Below, piece by piece: positions 11,384 through 27,206 of a stretch of DNA of 27,206 nt; within the stretch, counting starts at the first letter, position 1; the number at the start of each line of letters is the position of its first letter. The notes below the pieces were generated by a model. That model saw nothing but the letters and a program-made list of their open reading frames with translations, was not told where the DNA came from and ran no database searches. Made by a program: the position numbers and the translations under genes. Source of the DNA: a virus; IMG/VR virus record IMGVR_UViG_3300048023_000090, positions 1 through 27,206 of that record. One strand, 5' to 3'.

Positions 11384-12884
11384 TATTATCTCCTACTACA
11401 TTATCTTCTGGTTGACTTGCTCCGATTTGACTATCTATCAAAGCAATTTCATCGTCACTAAATCTTAAAATTTGTTTCTGGACATATTCTTTACTGAACA
11501 ATTGTCCAACATAAGGTGCAACCTGATTGAGAATTTCAACTCGACTTCTCAATACTTCCTGTTCCTTCGACTCAGTGTAGTAAGCATCAGATGCAAACTT
11601 ATACTGAAGGGCTTCCCTAATCGCAGGCCACTCTGTCTCGTTGATAACTCCCTTGAGAATCAACTGCGTCTTCAACAAATCATCAAAGACACCAGAGAAT
11701 CTTTTTCTCAACTTAGAAATGAACTTAGTAAACTTGAGTTCATCTCTTGTGATCTCAGCAGACCTACCAAAGTTAAGACCAGCCTGTTGTTCTAATCTAG
11801 AGACAGGAACATTGAGTGATTGATATAGTTTCTTCTGAAAGTAAACTACGTCTTCAATCTCACCCAAGTTCTGGCCACCAGGCAATGTTTGAATTTCTGT
11901 TCCTCTGCCACCTTCTTTTCTTGGCAACCAGAAGTCTTCAAGCATTGACATAAACTTTTTGTCATCTCGGATTTCTCCGGTCTCAGAATCGTATACTAAC
12001 TTGTTACGATATCTGTTCATGACATCTTTTAGATATTGTTCTGCCTTACTAGTAGGCAAGTTACCAACATCTATGTAAAAAATTCTTCTTTCTGGTGAAC
12101 GAGTGATACGATAAATCACCACCGCGTTCTCCATCATTCTTAACTGGTTAGCAGGGCGAATCGCTTTGTGCAGATACGATAGTGGTATATTCTTGTCTTG
12201 GTCAACCAAACCAGACGTACAATATGCAACTGCATCCTTACTAACTTTGATTGCCTTATCATTAGCAACATCCGTCTTGTACATTTGGTTGCTAGTGAGA
12301 GCAATACCTTTCTCATCAAATACAAAATACTCGTTTACTTCTTTGACCAGAGAAACTTGTGTTCTAGTATCTTTCTCTTTCCTGATCTCTCTGACCTTAC
12401 GAATCTTTCTCGGGTCAACGTAACGAATATCTTTTAAACCCTCTTTGGGTTTTTCTGTATCAATAACTTTATGGAAGTAAATTCTTCCATCGATGTACCA
12501 CCTTCTAAAATAATCTTGTGCCTTCGTATTGAAGTCCAAGATAGTCATGATGTTGTTAAACTCTTCTGCAATGGTTTTCTTAACACCCGCAGAGACAGAT
12601 AATTTATCAACATCAATCAGTACTGGTTTTTCATCATCAAGGTTTGATATAGAATCATTGACAACATCTTCAATAGCTGCGTCAACATCTCCCATCATGG
12701 AGATGTCTCTATATCTTTTAATTAACTGGCTCTCGTTATTAGCAGTACCTTCGATATCAAAGTATGTACCGTAATACCCACCAGCCTTAATAGCTTCGAG
12801 CGACCCATCATCCGTGGGGGGAACAAAAGACTTCTCCCCTTTAGACGATTTGGATCGCTCTATGCTGTATCCAAATAATTCCAT
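11376..12884 (-). CDS. 20: gp20, portal vertex protein
   Basis: This 502-residue protein is the T4-type portal (T4 gp20 is 524 residues). It forms the dodecameric DNA entry ring, initiates head assembly and docks the terminase. Recognisable blocks are LIKRYRDISMMGDVDAAIED near residue 54, IEDVVNDSISN, FRRWYIDGRIYFHKVID, DIRYVDPRKIRKVREI, a VIYRITRSPERRIFYIDVGN segment and PTSKAEQYLKDVMNRYRNKL. EDFWLPRKEGGRGTEIQTLP follows, then SRLEQQAGLNFGRSAEITRDE, all characteristic of gp20. It overlaps gp67 by 8 bp. The ribosome-binding site is a GGAT before ATG 12884. Confidence 0.97.
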   Translation of the reverse strand: MELFGYSIERSKSSKGEKSFVPPTDDGSLEAIKAGGYYGTYFDIEGTANNESQLIKRYRDISMMGDVDAAIEDVVNDSISNLDDEKPVLIDVDKLSVSAGVKKTIAEEFNNIMTILDFNTKAQDYFRRWYIDGRIYFHKVIDTEKPKEGLKDIRYVDPRKIRKVREIRKEKDTRTQVSLVKEVNEYFVFDEKGIALTSNQMYKTDVANDKAIKVSKDAVAYCTSGLVDQDKNIPLSYLHKAIRPANQLRMMENAVVIYRITRSPERRIFYIDVGNLPTSKAEQYLKDVMNRYRNKLVYDSETGEIRDDKKFMSMLEDFWLPRKEGGRGTEIQTLPGGQNLGEIEDVVYFQKKLYQSLNVPVSRLEQQAGLNFGRSAEITRDELKFTKFISKLRKRFSGVFDDLLKTQLILKGVINETEWPAIREALQYKFASDAYYTESKEQEVLRSRVEILNQVAPYVGQLFSKEYVQKQILRFSDDEIALIDSQIGASQPEDNVVGDNNE

Positions 12885-12911
12885 AATTTATCCTAGATTG
12901 ACGGTTAAGAC

Positions 12912-13427
12912 TTATCCCACATCGTAATGTGAGTACTGCCAAGTCACCGTAAATTCTTCAAAAATATCATTCTGTGCATAATTCAATGCGATTTCTGACA
13001 TCTGAATAGGGAAGGCATTGCGTAGTGTATACTGACCACCAGGCAATACTACATCATTACGATCCAGATGTTCAACAACGATGTCGGTCTGATAGTCACG
13101 GGGTGTAAGAACACCAGTGTTATCAGCACGATCATTCAGACCATTCATCCACTGTTCAAATGGAGCCCTGAGACTGAATTCAGAATCATTTACAACCGTA
13201 ATGGTCCACGGATCAAAGATTCTTTCTCCTGCCAACTTAACCTCGCGACCCCTATACTGGATGATCGCGGGGTTGACGTTTGAAGCAGGCAATGCGGCGC
13301 CAGTTACGAGCAGACTGTAAGAAGTGTCAACACCAACCACATAGCCGGGAAACGCGAGTTTCACCCTAAACTGGTTGGGACGAGCACCTCCGGCGCCAAG
13401 TCTTGCCTTAAACTCTTCAATATTCAT
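12912..13427 (-). CDS. 19: gp19, tail tube protein
   Basis: This 171-residue protein matches T4 gp19 (163 residues), the subunit of the rigid inner tail tube. It has the N-terminal RPNQFRVKLAFPGYV segment, ALPASNVNPAIIQYRGREVK, the AGERIFDPWTITVVNDSEFS block and the LRAPFEQWMNGLN helix. The strand-rich C-terminus includes LRNAFPIQMSEIALNY and FTVTWQYSHY. It lies directly after the sheath gene gp18, the usual order. An AGGAG ribosome-binding site precedes the ATG at a slightly long spacing. Its late promoter is the AATAAATA variant. Confidence 0.95.
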   Translation of the reverse strand: MNIEEFKARLGAGGARPNQFRVKLAFPGYVVGVDTSYSLLVTGAALPASNVNPAIIQYRGREVKLAGERIFDPWTITVVNDSEFSLRAPFEQWMNGLNDRADNTGVLTPRDYQTDIVVEHLDRNDVVLPGGQYTLRNAFPIQMSEIALNYAQNDIFEEFTVTWQYSHYDVG

Positions 13428-13453
13428 CTAACTTTTCTCCTAAGTTTGTCTGT

Positions 13454-13461
13454 TATTTATT
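13454..13461 (-). promoter_or_regulatory. Late promoter variant AATAAATA, gp19
   Basis: The minus strand reads AATAAATA, 26 bp upstream of the gp19 ATG, in the short gap after the gp18 stop (13469). One base from the T4 late consensus. Confidence 0.75.
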
Positions 13462-13468
13462 CGTACTA

Positions 13469-15412
13469 TTAAGCGCCAAGTTCTTCAAACGAGATGCCAG
13501 TTCTAGTAGCGATAAACGTCAGAGTGATGAAGTTGATAGACTTAGCAGGTTTGATGTAAATATCCGCTCTAAATTCATTAGAGTCGATAACCTGAGGCGT
13601 GTTGTTTGATTCGTCACAAACTACACGGAAGTCGTAAATACCTCTGCGTCCCTGTACGTCACGCAAGAACGGTTCTACTAGTGCAACAAACTGTGCTCTT
13701 GTGAACGCATCGTTGAACTCAAACAACTGGAATTTTGCAGCAGTTGCAATTGCCTTCTCAAGAACGATAAACAGTCTGCGAACATTGATTCGGTTGAAAG
13801 CAGAAGGTTTGGCAAGCATAGTCTTGTCACCAAACAAAACGATGCCCGTTCCAGGCGTGCTGATTACAGGGTTTACACCCTTTTGATACAGTGAATCTCT
13901 GTCTGCCTTTCTAGGAGACCATGAGAGTTTGATAGCATTCTTGATGATACCGCGATTCAAACCAGCAGGGGAGAACCAAGGATCATCAGCGAGGTCAGTG
14001 ATTACACAACAACCAGCAACGTCACCGTTCAACGGCGCGTATGTATATCTGTCGTTGTACTTGTCGTACATATACTTCCAACCACTGTCCATGACAGCGT
14101 AAGAAGAACGTGTATAAGAACCGTGGTCAGACTGACCGAGGATGTCGGTAACTTCGTCGCCTTCATTGTTTACAACGTTGTTTCTCTGTGGAGAAATAAA
14201 TGCGAGACAGTCTTTACGAACCTCACAGACGTTATCGATAACGTAGTCACCAACAGATGTTGGGTGTGCAGACAACAGAACCAGAGAAACATCTACCAAT
14301 TCGTCGTTTGCAAAGAGATCGTAACCAGTTTGCAGGTTGCCAACACTCGGTGCATCGTCAACACCACCCGTGAGAGAAGTGCTTTGATCTGCATCGGCAA
14401 AATCCATTGTGGCATAAGTAGTACCACCTTCTGAAGAAGTTCCCCAGTTTGTACCAGTTGCGGGGTCATCCATCCACCAAACCCACTTAGAACGATTATT
14501 GATTACGTTCTTGTAGTAGTTGGTAGAGTTGACATCATCTTTTGCATCAGATGCCTTTGAGACACCAGCAAACTTCTCAAGGACAGTACCAGCAATACCA
14601 GTGATCGCACCATCTTCATCGATGATGATGATGTTCAATTCGTCATGTGACGCACCGTTGTTATTAGCCCAATCAGTAGTAGTTGGTACACTATCAAACT
14701 CATCCTTGTAAGTCCACTCTGTTGCGAGAGTAGCAGTAGCAGCAACAGCACCAGTACCGTCAACGGTTACCGTAACTGTCGGTGCAGAACCGTAACCAAA
14801 GCCTGGGTCTGTAACAGTGATCGCAGTAACATTTCCACCAGAAACGGTAGCAGTTGCAGTAGCCTGAATACCACCAGAACCAACAGCAATCTGAGTAGGA
14901 GCGGAGAGTGCTACTGTTGCAGTAGTTCTGTCACCAGCACTGTCAGCTGAATCAAGTGCAATACTTCCAACACTCAGGTTGGTGGACGAGGTGACATCAG
15001 CAATCTCAACTTTGATACTGTTTCCAAGAGTACCGGCATACTTTGCAGCCCAAGGGCCAACAGAGTTTGAACCAGCATGGTACTGTTCGTTGTAGTGATC
15101 TTCGTTCTTAATAAGAACTGCGGTTCCTGTTGACACTGAGTTCTTTGCATCAACACCAACTTCTCTTACTGTAAGAAGGTTTGATCCGTAAGACAAGAAA
15201 CTGCCAGCAGTCATGAAGTCGTAGAAAGTAGTAGTAGATGGTCTACCAAATCTTTCTACCAAATTGTTTTCCGAATCAATTCGGGTAATCTCGTGAACAG
15301 GGCCCCAAGCAAAATCCCCAACTAGACCGCCAATTGTAGTAGCGACGGCTGGGACAACGTTGGTGAGGTCTCTTTCTCGGATTAGGACGCCAGGTGATAA
15401 CTGGAAAGCCAT
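13469..15412 (-). CDS. 18: gp18, tail sheath protein
   Basis: This 647-residue protein is the contractile sheath subunit (T4 gp18 is 659 residues). The N-terminus is LSPGVLIRERDLTNVVPAVA, followed by GLVGDFAWGPVHE. The C-terminal conserved core includes KLSWSPRKADRDSLYQKGVN, FGDKTMLAKPSAFNRINVRR, FEFNDAFTRAQFV, FRADIYIKPAKSINFITLTF and RTGISFEEL. Residues about 181-232 hold an inserted Ala/Thr/Val-rich module with a GFGYGSAPTVTV motif also found in gp15. A GVDDAPSVGNLQTGYDLF segment follows in the middle. It has an AAGGAG ribosome-binding site and a perfect late promoter. Confidence 0.95.
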   Translation of the reverse strand: MAFQLSPGVLIRERDLTNVVPAVATTIGGLVGDFAWGPVHEITRIDSENNLVERFGRPSTTTFYDFMTAGSFLSYGSNLLTVREVGVDAKNSVSTGTAVLIKNEDHYNEQYHAGSNSVGPWAAKYAGTLGNSIKVEIADVTSSTNLSVGSIALDSADSAGDRTTATVALSAPTQIAVGSGGIQATATATVSGGNVTAITVTDPGFGYGSAPTVTVTVDGTGAVAATATLATEWTYKDEFDSVPTTTDWANNNGASHDELNIIIIDEDGAITGIAGTVLEKFAGVSKASDAKDDVNSTNYYKNVINNRSKWVWWMDDPATGTNWGTSSEGGTTYATMDFADADQSTSLTGGVDDAPSVGNLQTGYDLFANDELVDVSLVLLSAHPTSVGDYVIDNVCEVRKDCLAFISPQRNNVVNNEGDEVTDILGQSDHGSYTRSSYAVMDSGWKYMYDKYNDRYTYAPLNGDVAGCCVITDLADDPWFSPAGLNRGIIKNAIKLSWSPRKADRDSLYQKGVNPVISTPGTGIVLFGDKTMLAKPSAFNRINVRRLFIVLEKAIATAAKFQLFEFNDAFTRAQFVALVEPFLRDVQGRRGIYDFRVVCDESNNTPQVIDSNEFRADIYIKPAKSINFITLTFIATRTGISFEELGA

Positions 15413-23579: not shown

Positions 23580-23846
23580 TTAAAATGTTCCGCCGTCTAT
23601 ATTTGCCACGTTAGCAGCAACATCTGCCGCCGGCGCAGCTTCCCAATTACCAGATGCAGCATCATATACTAAGGTATATCCATTTTGCACCCCATCTACG
23701 TCCACTCCCTGCAAACCATCAATACTTGTTGCAGTCTGTGTCCTAGAAGGATTCTGTACAGACGATTTCAGTCTGACATTACCTGTAGGTACAGAAGTTG
23801 TTACCCTTCTGACGTTTGTGGACCCCACCTTTACGTTCACTGCCAT
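23580..23846 (-). CDS. Small virion protein ending in IDGGTF
   Basis: This 88-residue protein starts MAVNVKVGSTNVRRVTTSVP, continues with a basic strand-rich segment (TGNVRLKSSVQNPSR), then GVDVDGVQNGYTLVYDAASG and NWEAAPA. The GYTLVYDAASGNWEAA pattern is like the short repeat seen in many phage fibre proteins. It ends in ANIDGGTF, the tag shared with 21235-21459 and 22133-23527. Its start is coupled to the upstream stop (TAATG). A function beyond virion association cannot be assigned. Confidence 0.78.
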   Translation of the reverse strand: MAVNVKVGSTNVRRVTTSVPTGNVRLKSSVQNPSRTQTATSIDGLQGVDVDGVQNGYTLVYDAASGNWEAAPAADVAANVANIDGGTF

Positions 23847-24172
23847 TACTTTGTTACCTCCGGTGTTACGGTTACAATTCCTTCCAGAATTCTCAAAGTC
23901 TCAGCACTACTTTCAATCTCAATATCATAAACATATCTACCAGCCTTGATACCACTGGTCTGCGCGGCAGTCAGTGATATAGTCAACTCTCCGTCGTTAT
24001 CTACTTTTGCTGTTGTAAAAGCTGTATAAGTAGATGTATAATAACTCTTACGCATTTGTGCAGAGACAGTATAAGAACTTAGGTCTTTTTCCGTCCCATC
24101 GTCATTTGTAAGATTTATCGTCAAGGAAAATGTTGTACCCTGATCGATAGTGATGTTTTGTACAGTTGCCAT
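23846..24172 (-). CDS. Small Ig-like structural protein
   Basis: This 108-residue protein is strand-rich, with a pattern found in small phage baseplate or fibre-associated beta-sandwich proteins: NITIDQGTTFSLTINLTNDD, KDLSSYTVSAQMRKSY, NDGELTISLTAAQTSGIKAG, RYVYDIEIESS and RILEGIVTVTPEVT. The order (DQGxTF...D...L..Y...A.MR...GxYxYDIEI...G.xxVxPxVT) resembles BppU-type or Ig-like N-terminal domains. It is the first gene of the fibre cluster and has a perfect late promoter. The ribosome-binding site is a weak GGGTGA. Confidence 0.8.
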   Translation of the reverse strand: MATVQNITIDQGTTFSLTINLTNDDGTEKDLSSYTVSAQMRKSYYTSTYTAFTTAKVDNDGELTISLTAAQTSGIKAGRYVYDIEIESSAETLRILEGIVTVTPEVTK

Positions 24173-24217: not shown

Positions 24218-24952
24218 ATGAAAACTATAGTCACAGTCCTTTATGGTGAGAAGTACAACTCAGATGATGTCCATTATATTTATGAAAAAACGAAATGCTA
24301 CAATCATGTATGCATCGTAGATGATGAGAATAGTAAATATCTCAACAAGAATATAAAACAAATACGAATAGAAGAACCAGAGGGACACTGGGAGAAGATA
24401 AAAATATTCAAAAATAATTGGCAGGGGGATTGCCTTTACCTAGACTTAGATGTTATAATACAGGGTAGTCTAGACAAATTGTTCGACCATTGTTCAAAAC
24501 CAACAATTTGTTATTGTTACTGGAAGGCTCCGTGGGACACCAGTGAGAATAAAGTGTACAACAGTCCAAAGCGGTACAAGGAAGATGACGGTTCCGATAC
24601 TGTACCTTGGACATATAAGTGGTTGGGGTCATGGAATTCCAGCGTCATGGCATGGAACGGGAATGACGCAAGATACATCTACAACTACTTTGAAGACAAC
24701 GACCAATATTTCATGACTAAATATTGTGGAGATGATAGATTTTTGTATCATGAAAAACTGTTTGACAATGTGTTTCCAAAAGGACTTATGTATTCATTTG
24801 TCGCTGGGGTAGATTTCGACACAGACGTATCTCCAAGGGGATATAAGATCAAACCAGAATATCCAATTGTGCTGATGAACGGTTCAATATCAAAAGATGA
24901 GTTGAGAAAAAAATATTATGATGCACTTTCTCTGCATGAAATGGGGAAATAA
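24218..24952 (+). CDS. GT-A-type glycosyltransferase-like protein
   Basis: This 244-residue protein starts MKTIVTVLYGEKYNSDDVHY, a first Rossmann-like strand and loop. A DCLYLDLDVIIQG segment holds the DxD motif at 76-78, the metal and nucleotide-sugar site of GT-A enzymes. Further motifs are GSWNSSVMAW near 137-146 and GDDRFLYHE near 171-179. The start at 24218 puts strand 1 at the N-terminus; the longer frame from 24158 would run across the gap and into the opposing gene. The next gene is a paralogue (shared LDLDV and NSSVM motifs). Acceptor and sugar are unknown: host surface glycan, virion protein or DNA are all possible. Confidence 0.85.
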   Translation: MKTIVTVLYGEKYNSDDVHYIYEKTKCYNHVCIVDDENSKYLNKNIKQIRIEEPEGHWEKIKIFKNNWQGDCLYLDLDVIIQGSLDKLFDHCSKPTICYCYWKAPWDTSENKVYNSPKRYKEDDGSDTVPWTYKWLGSWNSSVMAWNGNDARYIYNYFEDNDQYFMTKYCGDDRFLYHEKLFDNVFPKGLMYSFVAGVDFDTDVSPRGYKIKPEYPIVLMNGSISKDELRKKYYDALSLHEMGK

Positions 24953-27206
24953 GTACTCGGCAGAATATGTAAACAATTTACGCAAGATGGTTCAACAGAA
25001 CTATACCAAGCGACACAAGTTTATATGTTACACCGATGATCCAGATGGTATTGACAAGGGCATAACCATTCGATCAATACCCAAAGTCGATCCTCTGCAT
25101 CCCGATTATTGGTTTGGCCGAGAAAATTATTGTTGGGATCGAGCAAAGTTTCTTGTTCTAAATTCTCATCATTGGTTACGCACCAAGGGCCCATTCTGTT
25201 ATCTGGACTTAGATGTTGTCATCCAGAACAACATTGATGAAATCTTTGAGTTATCTGCCACACCTCATATGTTATATTCTCATTGGGAAGACCCCAGTGT
25301 GTTGCATGACCGGAGATTCAAGGACATCCGTGGCAGTCTCTATAACTCCAGTGTTATGTTATGGTGCAACGACGAGGGTGAAAAGATTTACAATGATGTC
25401 CTCAAACACAAAGACGCCGTATTCAAAACATTTTGGAAGGGAACAGACAACTACTATCCCTACCGAGAACACGATGTGGTTGGTGACAACTACTGGTCTT
25501 TCCTGCCGTCGGATTGGGTTTACTCTTACAACAGGGGTCAGTCATACCCAGATAATTTGACAGAACACCTATACAGAGAAGAGGCAAAATTCTGTATCTT
25601 TGATGTCCCCGTGGTCCCAAGGAAAAGTGTTCAAAAATATTTCAAACCATCCGAGGTAAAAGACTACAACATACTGATACACTGGTATGGCAAGAATGAG
25701 TTTGAAAAACTTTGGATGCCTAAGTTTCCAGAGAACTTTTTCACTGATAACAAACACACAAAAAGAATTGATACACTAATCAATGATGCAAACTCATATG
25801 ATCCGTTTGTAAAACAAATAGAATCCAGACACCTAGAAACTATCAAAGAACTTGATGGTGATCTGATTTCAATGCACAAGAAGTTTCTTGCAGATTTTCC
25901 TACTGACCCCCTATTATTGGAGGGCGATGAATCATTGTATTGGAACAAAAACGTAGACGGCATCTATAATTTCTACAAAGAAAGATACGTTTACAAAATG
26001 CACAAGGTGGTCTTTGATGTTTTGGTAGATAAGTTTTACAAAGACCTACCAAGAATAAAAGAAGATTGGGGGAAGTACAAAGACAAGTTTGACAGAATAA
26101 AAAACTGGTGTCAGTTTGATTCCATGACGGATGAAACTCTGGAAAAAAACTATATGGACCAGAGTATCATAAACAAACTGCGCCAGATGGTAGAGGAGAA
26201 CGATCTAACGTCCCTATCAGACAAGATGATCGAATGCTTCCCAGAGTTAAAAGATCAGCTGAAGGGAACTATATCCGACATCAAGGAGTCTGTTCCAGAG
26301 TTAGAAAAAGAAATATCAAACTTCACTTTCATCAGAAGAATTGAACCGCAACACAAACAGATCATCAAAGAAATATTTGACACTGGTGATATGATATCCA
26401 TGCACAAGAAGTTTTTGGCAGACTTCCCAGATGATCCGATGTTGCAACGCGGCGACCAATCTCTGTACTGGAATAGAGACGCAGACGGAATCTACGATTT
26501 CTATAAAGAGAGATATATTTCTCGACAACATAAAATTGTCTACAACGAGGCAAACGACATTGGGTCTGTAAGATACTTCTGGAACATAAGTTGGATGCAG
26601 TGTTTTGCATTGTATCGTAGACTGTGGTACAAGAATAATCTTCCACAGATCAAAAAGGAGTTTATGAAGAATGTTGAACTATACGGCATTCAAAGATTGT
26701 TCTGGGATGCGGATGACGCAGACACACAAAAGTTGTACAAGAGATACTACATAGAAAATCTCAAAGAACTTTTTTATAAACAGGACTATGAGGCAGTGTT
26801 TGAAAGACTTTACAACATCATGCCAAAAGATGAACTGTTATCGATACTCAAACAAGACAACATGTCTGACGATGACACGTTAGTAAAATACTTTCAGATG
26901 CACGGCGAACAGTACTCTGACATGTACCGTGGTCTATATGAAGACGGCGCACCGGATGGAGCACTAGTGCAGCTAAGTGCCGCAAGAAATGACACAAAAG
27001 ATTCTTACAACGACATTTTTTTGACGGGGTACGAACATAATTTAAAATCCATCCGTAAAATTTTTGACAGGTATAGAGTGAATTGGGTGACGTTGATGTG
27101 TGAACTTTCTGACCCCACCAAAACAGAACACTTTGAAGAGATATGCAAATACTTCAGAGACAATGGCATAACACTTACGGTGCAAACTTACGATCAAACT
27201 TTTATG
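24921..27206 (+). CDS. Large multidomain glycosyltransferase-like protein, truncated by window end
   Basis: The frame starts at ATG 24921, overlaps the previous gene by 32 bp and stays open to the last base, giving 762 residues without a stop. Residues 1-260 form a GT-A domain: HFLCMKWGNKYSAEYVNNL first strand, FICYTDDPDGIDKGI, PFCYLDLDVVIQNNIDEIFE with DxD at 96-98, YNSSVMLW (141-148) and ILIHWYGKNEFEKLW. The rest is mostly helical and charged. A 48-residue unit occurs twice, at 315-362 and 491-538 (34 of 48 identical; core SMHKKFLADFP and DGIYxFYKERY). The last visible part (LSDPTKTEHFEEICKYFRDN then GITLTVQT) has a strand-helix-strand rhythm like half of a TIM-type or radical-SAM barrel, but no Cys cluster is seen. 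Starts at 24918 or 24936 are alternatives. Confidence 0.85.
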   Translation, partial: MHFLCMKWGNKYSAEYVNNLRKMVQQNYTKRHKFICYTDDPDGIDKGITIRSIPKVDPLHPDYWFGRENYCWDRAKFLVLNSHHWLRTKGPFCYLDLDVVIQNNIDEIFELSATPHMLYSHWEDPSVLHDRRFKDIRGSLYNSSVMLWCNDEGEKIYNDVLKHKDAVFKTFWKGTDNYYPYREHDVVGDNYWSFLPSDWVYSYNRGQSYPDNLTEHLYREEAKFCIFDVPVVPRKSVQKYFKPSEVKDYNILIHWYGKNEFEKLWMPKFPENFFTDNKHTKRIDTLINDANSYDPFVKQIESRHLETIKELDGDLISMHKKFLADFPTDPLLLEGDESLYWNKNVDGIYNFYKERYVYKMHKVVFDVLVDKFYKDLPRIKEDWGKYKDKFDRIKNWCQFDSMTDETLEKNYMDQSIINKLRQMVEENDLTSLSDKMIECFPELKDQLKGTISDIKESVPELEKEISNFTFIRRIEPQHKQIIKEIFDTGDMISMHKKFLADFPDDPMLQRGDQSLYWNRDADGIYDFYKERYISRQHKIVYNEANDIGSVRYFWNISWMQCFALYRRLWYKNNLPQIKKEFMKNVELYGIQRLFWDADDADTQKLYKRYYIENLKELFYKQDYEAVFERLYNIMPKDELLSILKQDNMSDDDTLVKYFQMHGEQYSDMYRGLYEDGAPDGALVQLSAARNDTKDSYNDIFLTGYEHNLKSIRKIFDRYRVNWVTLMCELSDPTKTEHFEEICKYFRDNGITLTVQTYDQTFM
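25863..26006 (+). repeat. Protein-level internal repeat, copy 1
   Basis: This segment encodes residues 315-362 of the large glycosyltransferase-like protein and matches copy 2 (26391-26534) at 34 of 48 residues. Weaker similarity extends upstream (IExxHxxxIKE). The period is 176 residues. Confidence 0.9.
26391..26534 (+). repeat. Protein-level internal repeat, copy 2
   Basis: This segment encodes residues 491-538 of the same protein. The conserved core is ISMHKKFLADFP, SLYWN and DGIY.FYKERY. The nucleotide sequences have diverged at many third positions, so the duplication is old and kept by selection on the protein. Confidence 0.9.

Follow-up and report, generated by a model that had tools for sequence, protein, structure and literature searches.

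A phage protein joining a glycosyltransferase-like domain, a helical repeat array and a C-terminal domain of radical-SAM/SPASM lineage

We found in a marine T4-like phage a long open reading frame whose product probably unites a GT-A glycosyltransferase and an array of helical repeats with a C-terminal tail derived from SPASM/Twitch radical-SAM proteins. Judged from sequence patterns and structural models, this tail would be a non-cleaving acceptor-binding or scaffold module that holds one Fe-S cluster, a reading we favour with fair confidence. Its placement in the radical-SAM/SPASM lineage is settled by profile-profile and fold comparison rather than by pairwise searches. This radical-SAM/SPASM-derived C-terminus is the most informative domain of the protein, and most of it lies beyond the window, i.e. 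the stretch of DNA analysed here, which is the whole virus record IMGVR_UViG_3300048023_000090 (27,206 bases). The tail has lost the very cluster that defines radical-SAM enzymes.

The gene, its completion and its genomic setting

The reading frame has ATG codons at 24918 and 24921 and, as an earlier note on this DNA had remarked, runs without a stop from 24918 to the right window end at 27206. The stop, which that note proposed to seek further to the right, was found in the overlapping contig L002 (100% identity over the overlap) and completes a protein of 911 aa, with the SPASM part encoded beyond the right window edge (Table 1). A first scan of relatives yielded 62 loci, to which further loci were added via profiles of other gene parts; all family members are known from uncultivated contigs. 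The same frame is uninterrupted in dozens of contigs and across length classes, and the possibility that an assembly error had joined two genes is therefore ruled out. Glycosyltransferase and tail are fused in every uncut copy except in the frameshifted contig L012, a close relative in which the gene (L012:191-2937) is split by a frame change exactly at the NDT loop of the tail; from the sequence, we read this as a sequencing error or a recent loss.

Table 1. Positions of the gene and its parts (window coordinates unless a contig is named)
Feature	Position	Strand	Basis or remark
Upstream paralogous glycosyltransferase gene	24218..24952	+	phrog_1962, 1.5e-12
Studied gene, first 762 of 911 codons	24921..27206	+	GT-A domain, helical repeat array, radical-SAM-like barrel
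Completed gene in contig L002	L002:411-3143		identical to window over overlap
GT-A glycosyltransferase domain, residues 1-275	24921..25745	+	phrog_1962
Helical array of degenerate repeats	25746..26945	+	hhalign self-comparison; helices in full-length AF2 model
In-frame insertion of ~77 residues with unit copy 1	25791..26021	+	alignment; tree support 98/98
48-residue unit, copy 1	25869..26012	+	
48-residue unit, copy 2	26397..26540	+	common to single-module relatives
Radical-SAM-like C-terminal domain, start (residues 676-762)	26946..27206	+	beta1, loop, alpha1, beta2, alpha2, beta3
N-D-T...N-D-I-F loop, residues 690-700	26988..27020	+	place of radical-SAM CxxxCxxC
CELSDP, residues 727-732	27099..27116	+	counterpart of radical-SAM GGEP/G-GDP motif; hhalign

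The gene sits in a row of similar glycosyltransferase genes: the upstream paralog overlaps its start by 35 bases, and of the 64 complete frames that could be assessed, 59 are followed immediately by another glycosyltransferase gene, in all length classes. T4-like genes for terminase, sheath, portal, capsid, neck (Hc2, Ad2) and tail-fibre-like proteins occupy the minus strand of the window; portal proteins of Methylophilales phage Melnitz, cyanomyoviruses and Pelagibacter phage Mosig match the one encoded here at 54-55% identity. A small protein (23846-24172, minus strand), encoded divergently from the glycosyltransferase row, matches the PHROG family for L-shaped tail fibre assembly (4.5e-20). 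In pelagimyophages, the host-recognition cluster between VrlC and the neck gene gp14 comprises glycosyltransferases, with GT8 most represented, as well as radical-SAM cassettes, and O-chain modification has been proposed (PMC7029224). A T4-like marine phage genome with 12 radical-SAM genes has likewise been described (PMC5332604).

Several related loci hold further unusual genes. A fatty-acid desaturase-like gene with histidine boxes (L236:7633-8397, plus strand) adjoins a relative of the studied gene that has no array, within the glycosyltransferase row. Contig L054 encodes a structural-looking protein (12728-14059, minus strand) marked by an extended tract of 'YTGxYTGxYxG' repeats, near which lie fibre-like proteins with 'GNVTGDVTGDLTG' repeats. 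The T4-like relatives L135 (G001:134000-149500), L136, L137 and L138 carry clusters of at least five radical-SAM genes of ~400 aa, between which lie other genes of biosynthetic appearance, and each genome has 7-9 radical-SAM frames. Several of the clustered radical-SAM genes have an N-terminal SPASM-like segment, 'CLPWIH...PCC'.

The GT-A domain that the earlier note had recognized stands as a GT-A-like domain. Its motifs are DLD (residues 96-98), NSS (142-144), GTDN (174-177) and HW-GK (about 254-258), and DLD is invariant in an alignment of 12 diverse members. The PHROG family 1962, 'glycosyltransferase', matches 10 of these 12 domains (best 1.1e-15) and the window protein over its N-terminal half (4e-5). 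A search of PDB sequences with the domain returned no relative. The gathering score of Pfam Glyco_transf_8 was missed, the best score being 17.5 bits against a cut-off of 24.3, and this for the upstream paralog only; we therefore call the domain GT8-like and do not file it as GT8.

Helical array and duplicated unit

The middle of the protein is mostly helical, as had been proposed: helices appear in the full-length AF2 model, and hhalign self-comparison reveals a helical-repeat array with scores of 40-43, compared with a column-shuffled maximum of 17.7. The full-length model was built from 11 sequences and reaches a pLDDT of 49, at which it is unusable for the glycosyltransferase domain; its structure search peaks at Z 6. 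Tiled profile-profile self-comparison of single-module proteins resolved two kinds of repeat. A-type units ('I..L...DY.sL..KF..DFP') occupy columns 17-43, 82-108, 147-172 and, weakly, 279-303, and B-type units ('G..R.FWD....LYK.YY') lie at about columns 184-220, 221-261 and 255-288. Pfam searches with the P0001 and P0002 arrays, covering TPR, HEAT and other helical families, gave chance-level matches only, and one homolog matched DUF6557 at 6e-4, under the cut-off of that family.

The 48-residue unit noticed earlier does occur twice, with 34 of 48 residues identical at a spacing of 176 residues, and consists of one A-type and one B-type repeat. The DNA beneath it has diverged as described, since only 98 of 144 bases are identical and, among the 34 identical residues, no more than 14 share a codon. 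Synonymous sites between the copies are saturated (pS 0.97) while dN is 0.20, and conservation therefore acts on the protein, in agreement with the view that the duplication is real and under selection. Strict conservation of the HKK, YWN, DGIY and KERY residues holds among close relatives and fails in deeper ones: L054-type homologs match the unit at 13-17 of 48 positions, where roughly S[MV]H..F, QS and WN are left. Searches with the unit against Pfam, PHROG, NCBIfam and PDB sequences gave no worthwhile match, and its membership in a known domain family, raised as a possibility in the earlier note, thus found no backing.

Nor do the data support the idea that the unit is a catalytic module by itself. 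From sequence comparison, it is rather the youngest copy among older, degenerate helical repeats, and the array is missing altogether from at least 13 distinct members of the family. One compact relative, L241, measures 461 aa. Array length, counted from the HW-G of the glycosyltransferase domain to the NDT loop of the tail, comes in steps of 24, 155, 257-260, 359-363 or 435-436 residues, the 155-residue step being represented by one tree row (L192). In a midpoint-rooted tree built from the two end domains, members without the array form one clade (100/99), and the two-module proteins form another (98/98), which is nested within the class of roughly 361 residues; because the root is the midpoint, the tree does not settle the ancestry of the array-free form. 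The insertion that carries copy 1 is restricted to the two-module clade, whose proteins measure 906-911 aa, and a late gain of this copy is well supported by alignment and tree. In this family, the growth of a repeat array can be followed through clearly graded natural forms.

The radical-SAM/SPASM-derived tail

The tail comprises the C-terminal 235 residues, i.e. a shortened radical-SAM barrel followed by a SPASM/Twitch domain. Even with SPASM removed, the barrel half aligns by hhalign with phage GDP-type radical-SAM proteins at a score of 30.8 (E 5.4e-5), compared with at most 20.3 in 100 column shuffles, and the register is right, with SDP pairing with GDP. The SPASM half matches intact phage radical-SAM proteins at E 1.1e-3 in a single comparison. 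Pfam SPASM (PF13186) is matched at E up to 0.1 by 27 of 35 C-terminal domains; its gathering score of 21.5 is missed by the window-type protein, reached by L236 (21.8) and also reached by the L054 ortholog when its neighbours in frame are included (22.2). Direct matches of the tail to a phage radical-SAM protein are weak (E 0.025 in pairwise BLAST, 0.015 in single-sequence hhalign).

An AF2 model of the tail, built from the family's own 35 sequences only, has residues 10-105 at pLDDT 86-98 and predicts a partial TIM barrel of shortened form. Its matches are led by SuiB (Z 13.2), BtrN (Z 13.1, rmsd 2.9 over 150) and PqqE (Z 13.0); rows 1-27 of the match list are all radical-SAM proteins, and the first other fold follows at Z 5.6. 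Radical-SAM phage proteins also lead the matches in a viral structure library, and Foldseek gave a best E of 1.5e-3, with none below 0.001. The closest intact relative found is family A8, one member of which (L142:752-2299, plus strand) joins an intact radical-SAM/SPASM enzyme to a C-terminus resembling short-chain dehydrogenases. Among 50,697 GenBank phages, matches were confined to the glycosyltransferase part and nothing related to the tail rose above chance, and a scan of the bacterial and archaeal genomes of 84,980 species gave 29 pattern matches and no relative; as these collection scans were pattern-based, distant relatives may escape them, and the bacterial and archaeal result is therefore no proof of absence.

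In radical-SAM enzymes, CxxxCxxC usually binds the SAM-cleaving [4Fe-4S] cluster, and a Twitch domain binds one auxiliary cluster (PMC9012708). None of 91 C-terminal domains has a cysteine in the CxxxCxxC region, and a relative with this motif at the loop was sought among the 91 copies and not found. In the loop that takes its place, one N never varies, and D, T, N and D are nearly always kept. We are unsure of the register here, as hhalign favours a deletion of the cysteine triad and reading by eye a replacement of C by N. Five SPASM cysteines, by contrast, are kept in 86 of 87 sequences, a set that could bind an auxiliary Fe-S cluster, and the distance from the GDP-like motif to SPASM is about 90 residues, compared with about 180 in intact relatives. 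Across all domains, dN is 0.04-0.26 and dS mostly saturated, which indicates strong purifying selection. This pattern of cysteine loss and retention, together with the selection, argues for a working, non-SAM-cleaving domain and not for a decaying one, and the tail is likely to hold a single Fe-S cluster with a structural or substrate-binding role.

Possible roles and comparison with known systems

We propose that the GT-A domain transfers a sugar, and that the tail, no longer cleaving SAM, would fold around one auxiliary-type Fe-S cluster and, without catalysis of its own, bind the acceptor or serve as a scaffold, presenting the substrate to the glycosyltransferase. Candidate acceptors are the phage fibre proteins encoded nearby and glycans on the host surface. 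The array may set the reach of the protein or add binding surface, an acceptor-recognition or scaffold role being possible, and the duplicate in the window would be its latest extension. A more specific scenario is speculative and in our view rather unlikely: loss of the SAM-cleaving centre would predate the radiation of the known family, and what remained, still with its auxiliary Fe-S cluster, would have been co-opted to bind a protein or peptide acceptor for a glycosyltransferase that modifies the phage's own fibre proteins.

The array could also be explained in other ways. Multi-site acceptor recognition, with each repeat binding one unit of a repeated substrate, would fit repeats that are under purifying selection and an array that lengthened in discrete in-frame steps, but the array-free members, the loss of motif residues in deeper relatives and the lack of a match to any known binding family leave it doubtful, if still conceivable. 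That the array is a mere spacer, growing and shrinking by slippage or recombination with little function beyond separating the end domains, could account for the large length differences among relatives and the strongly diverged repeats; we think this improbable, because lengths are discrete and clade-bound instead of scattered, and dN is low throughout the array.

Two further readings concern the end domains. The tail might still perform radical or redox chemistry through its SPASM cluster or non-cysteine ligands such as the loop Asn/Asp, which would make the protein a glycosylating and oxidising enzyme. The conserved loop under strong purifying selection and the close fold match to BtrN, an aminocyclitol dehydrogenase (PMC9012708), speak for such chemistry, yet CxxxCxxC is missing in 91 of 91 copies and the stretch between GDP-like motif and SPASM is cut by about half, so that we regard it as very unlikely. 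Even less probable is a fibre-associated virion component with an inactive glycosyltransferase domain: the gene does adjoin tail-fibre-like and neck genes, but DLD and other glycosyltransferase positions are invariant, and the gene lies among similar glycosyltransferases. A viral lineage in which the fold and the auxiliary-cluster cysteines persist under strong selection while the catalytic centre is gone would separate the role of SPASM/Twitch alone, in binding and structure, from radical chemistry, a question that the field calls open (PMC9012708), and a new architecture would be added to the glycosyltransferases beside the host-recognition genes of marine T4-like phages.

The tail resembles SPASM/Twitch radical-SAM enzymes (SuiB, BtrN, PqqE, MoaA, anSME) in its predicted fold (Z 9-13) and in the order of barrel and cysteine-rich end, and its spacing C-x18-C...C-x3-C is that of the intact phage radical-SAM proteins A8, which occur in similar genomes. 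Unlike these enzymes, it has no CxxxCxxC, its barrel is shortened and it stands behind a glycosyltransferase; it cannot be named a radical-SAM enzyme. Radical-SAM cassettes known from marine T4-like phages (PMC5332604) occur in the same kind of genomes, and the GDP-type proteins (A8) are a possible source of the tail, but the cassettes keep CxxxCxxC and the full barrel and have no glycosyltransferase. In the literature covered, which left out most subscription journals, we found neither a description of the glycosyltransferase/tail fusion nor of a cysteine-less radical-SAM domain. The type of locus is already known from pelagimyophages, whose GT8-like PHROG 1962 enzymes (PMC7029224) are likewise GT-A proteins with DxD, several in a row in a tail-fibre/neck cluster. 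These neighbours are single-domain proteins of 220-290 aa, whereas the protein studied here adds a repeat array and a radical-SAM-derived tail.
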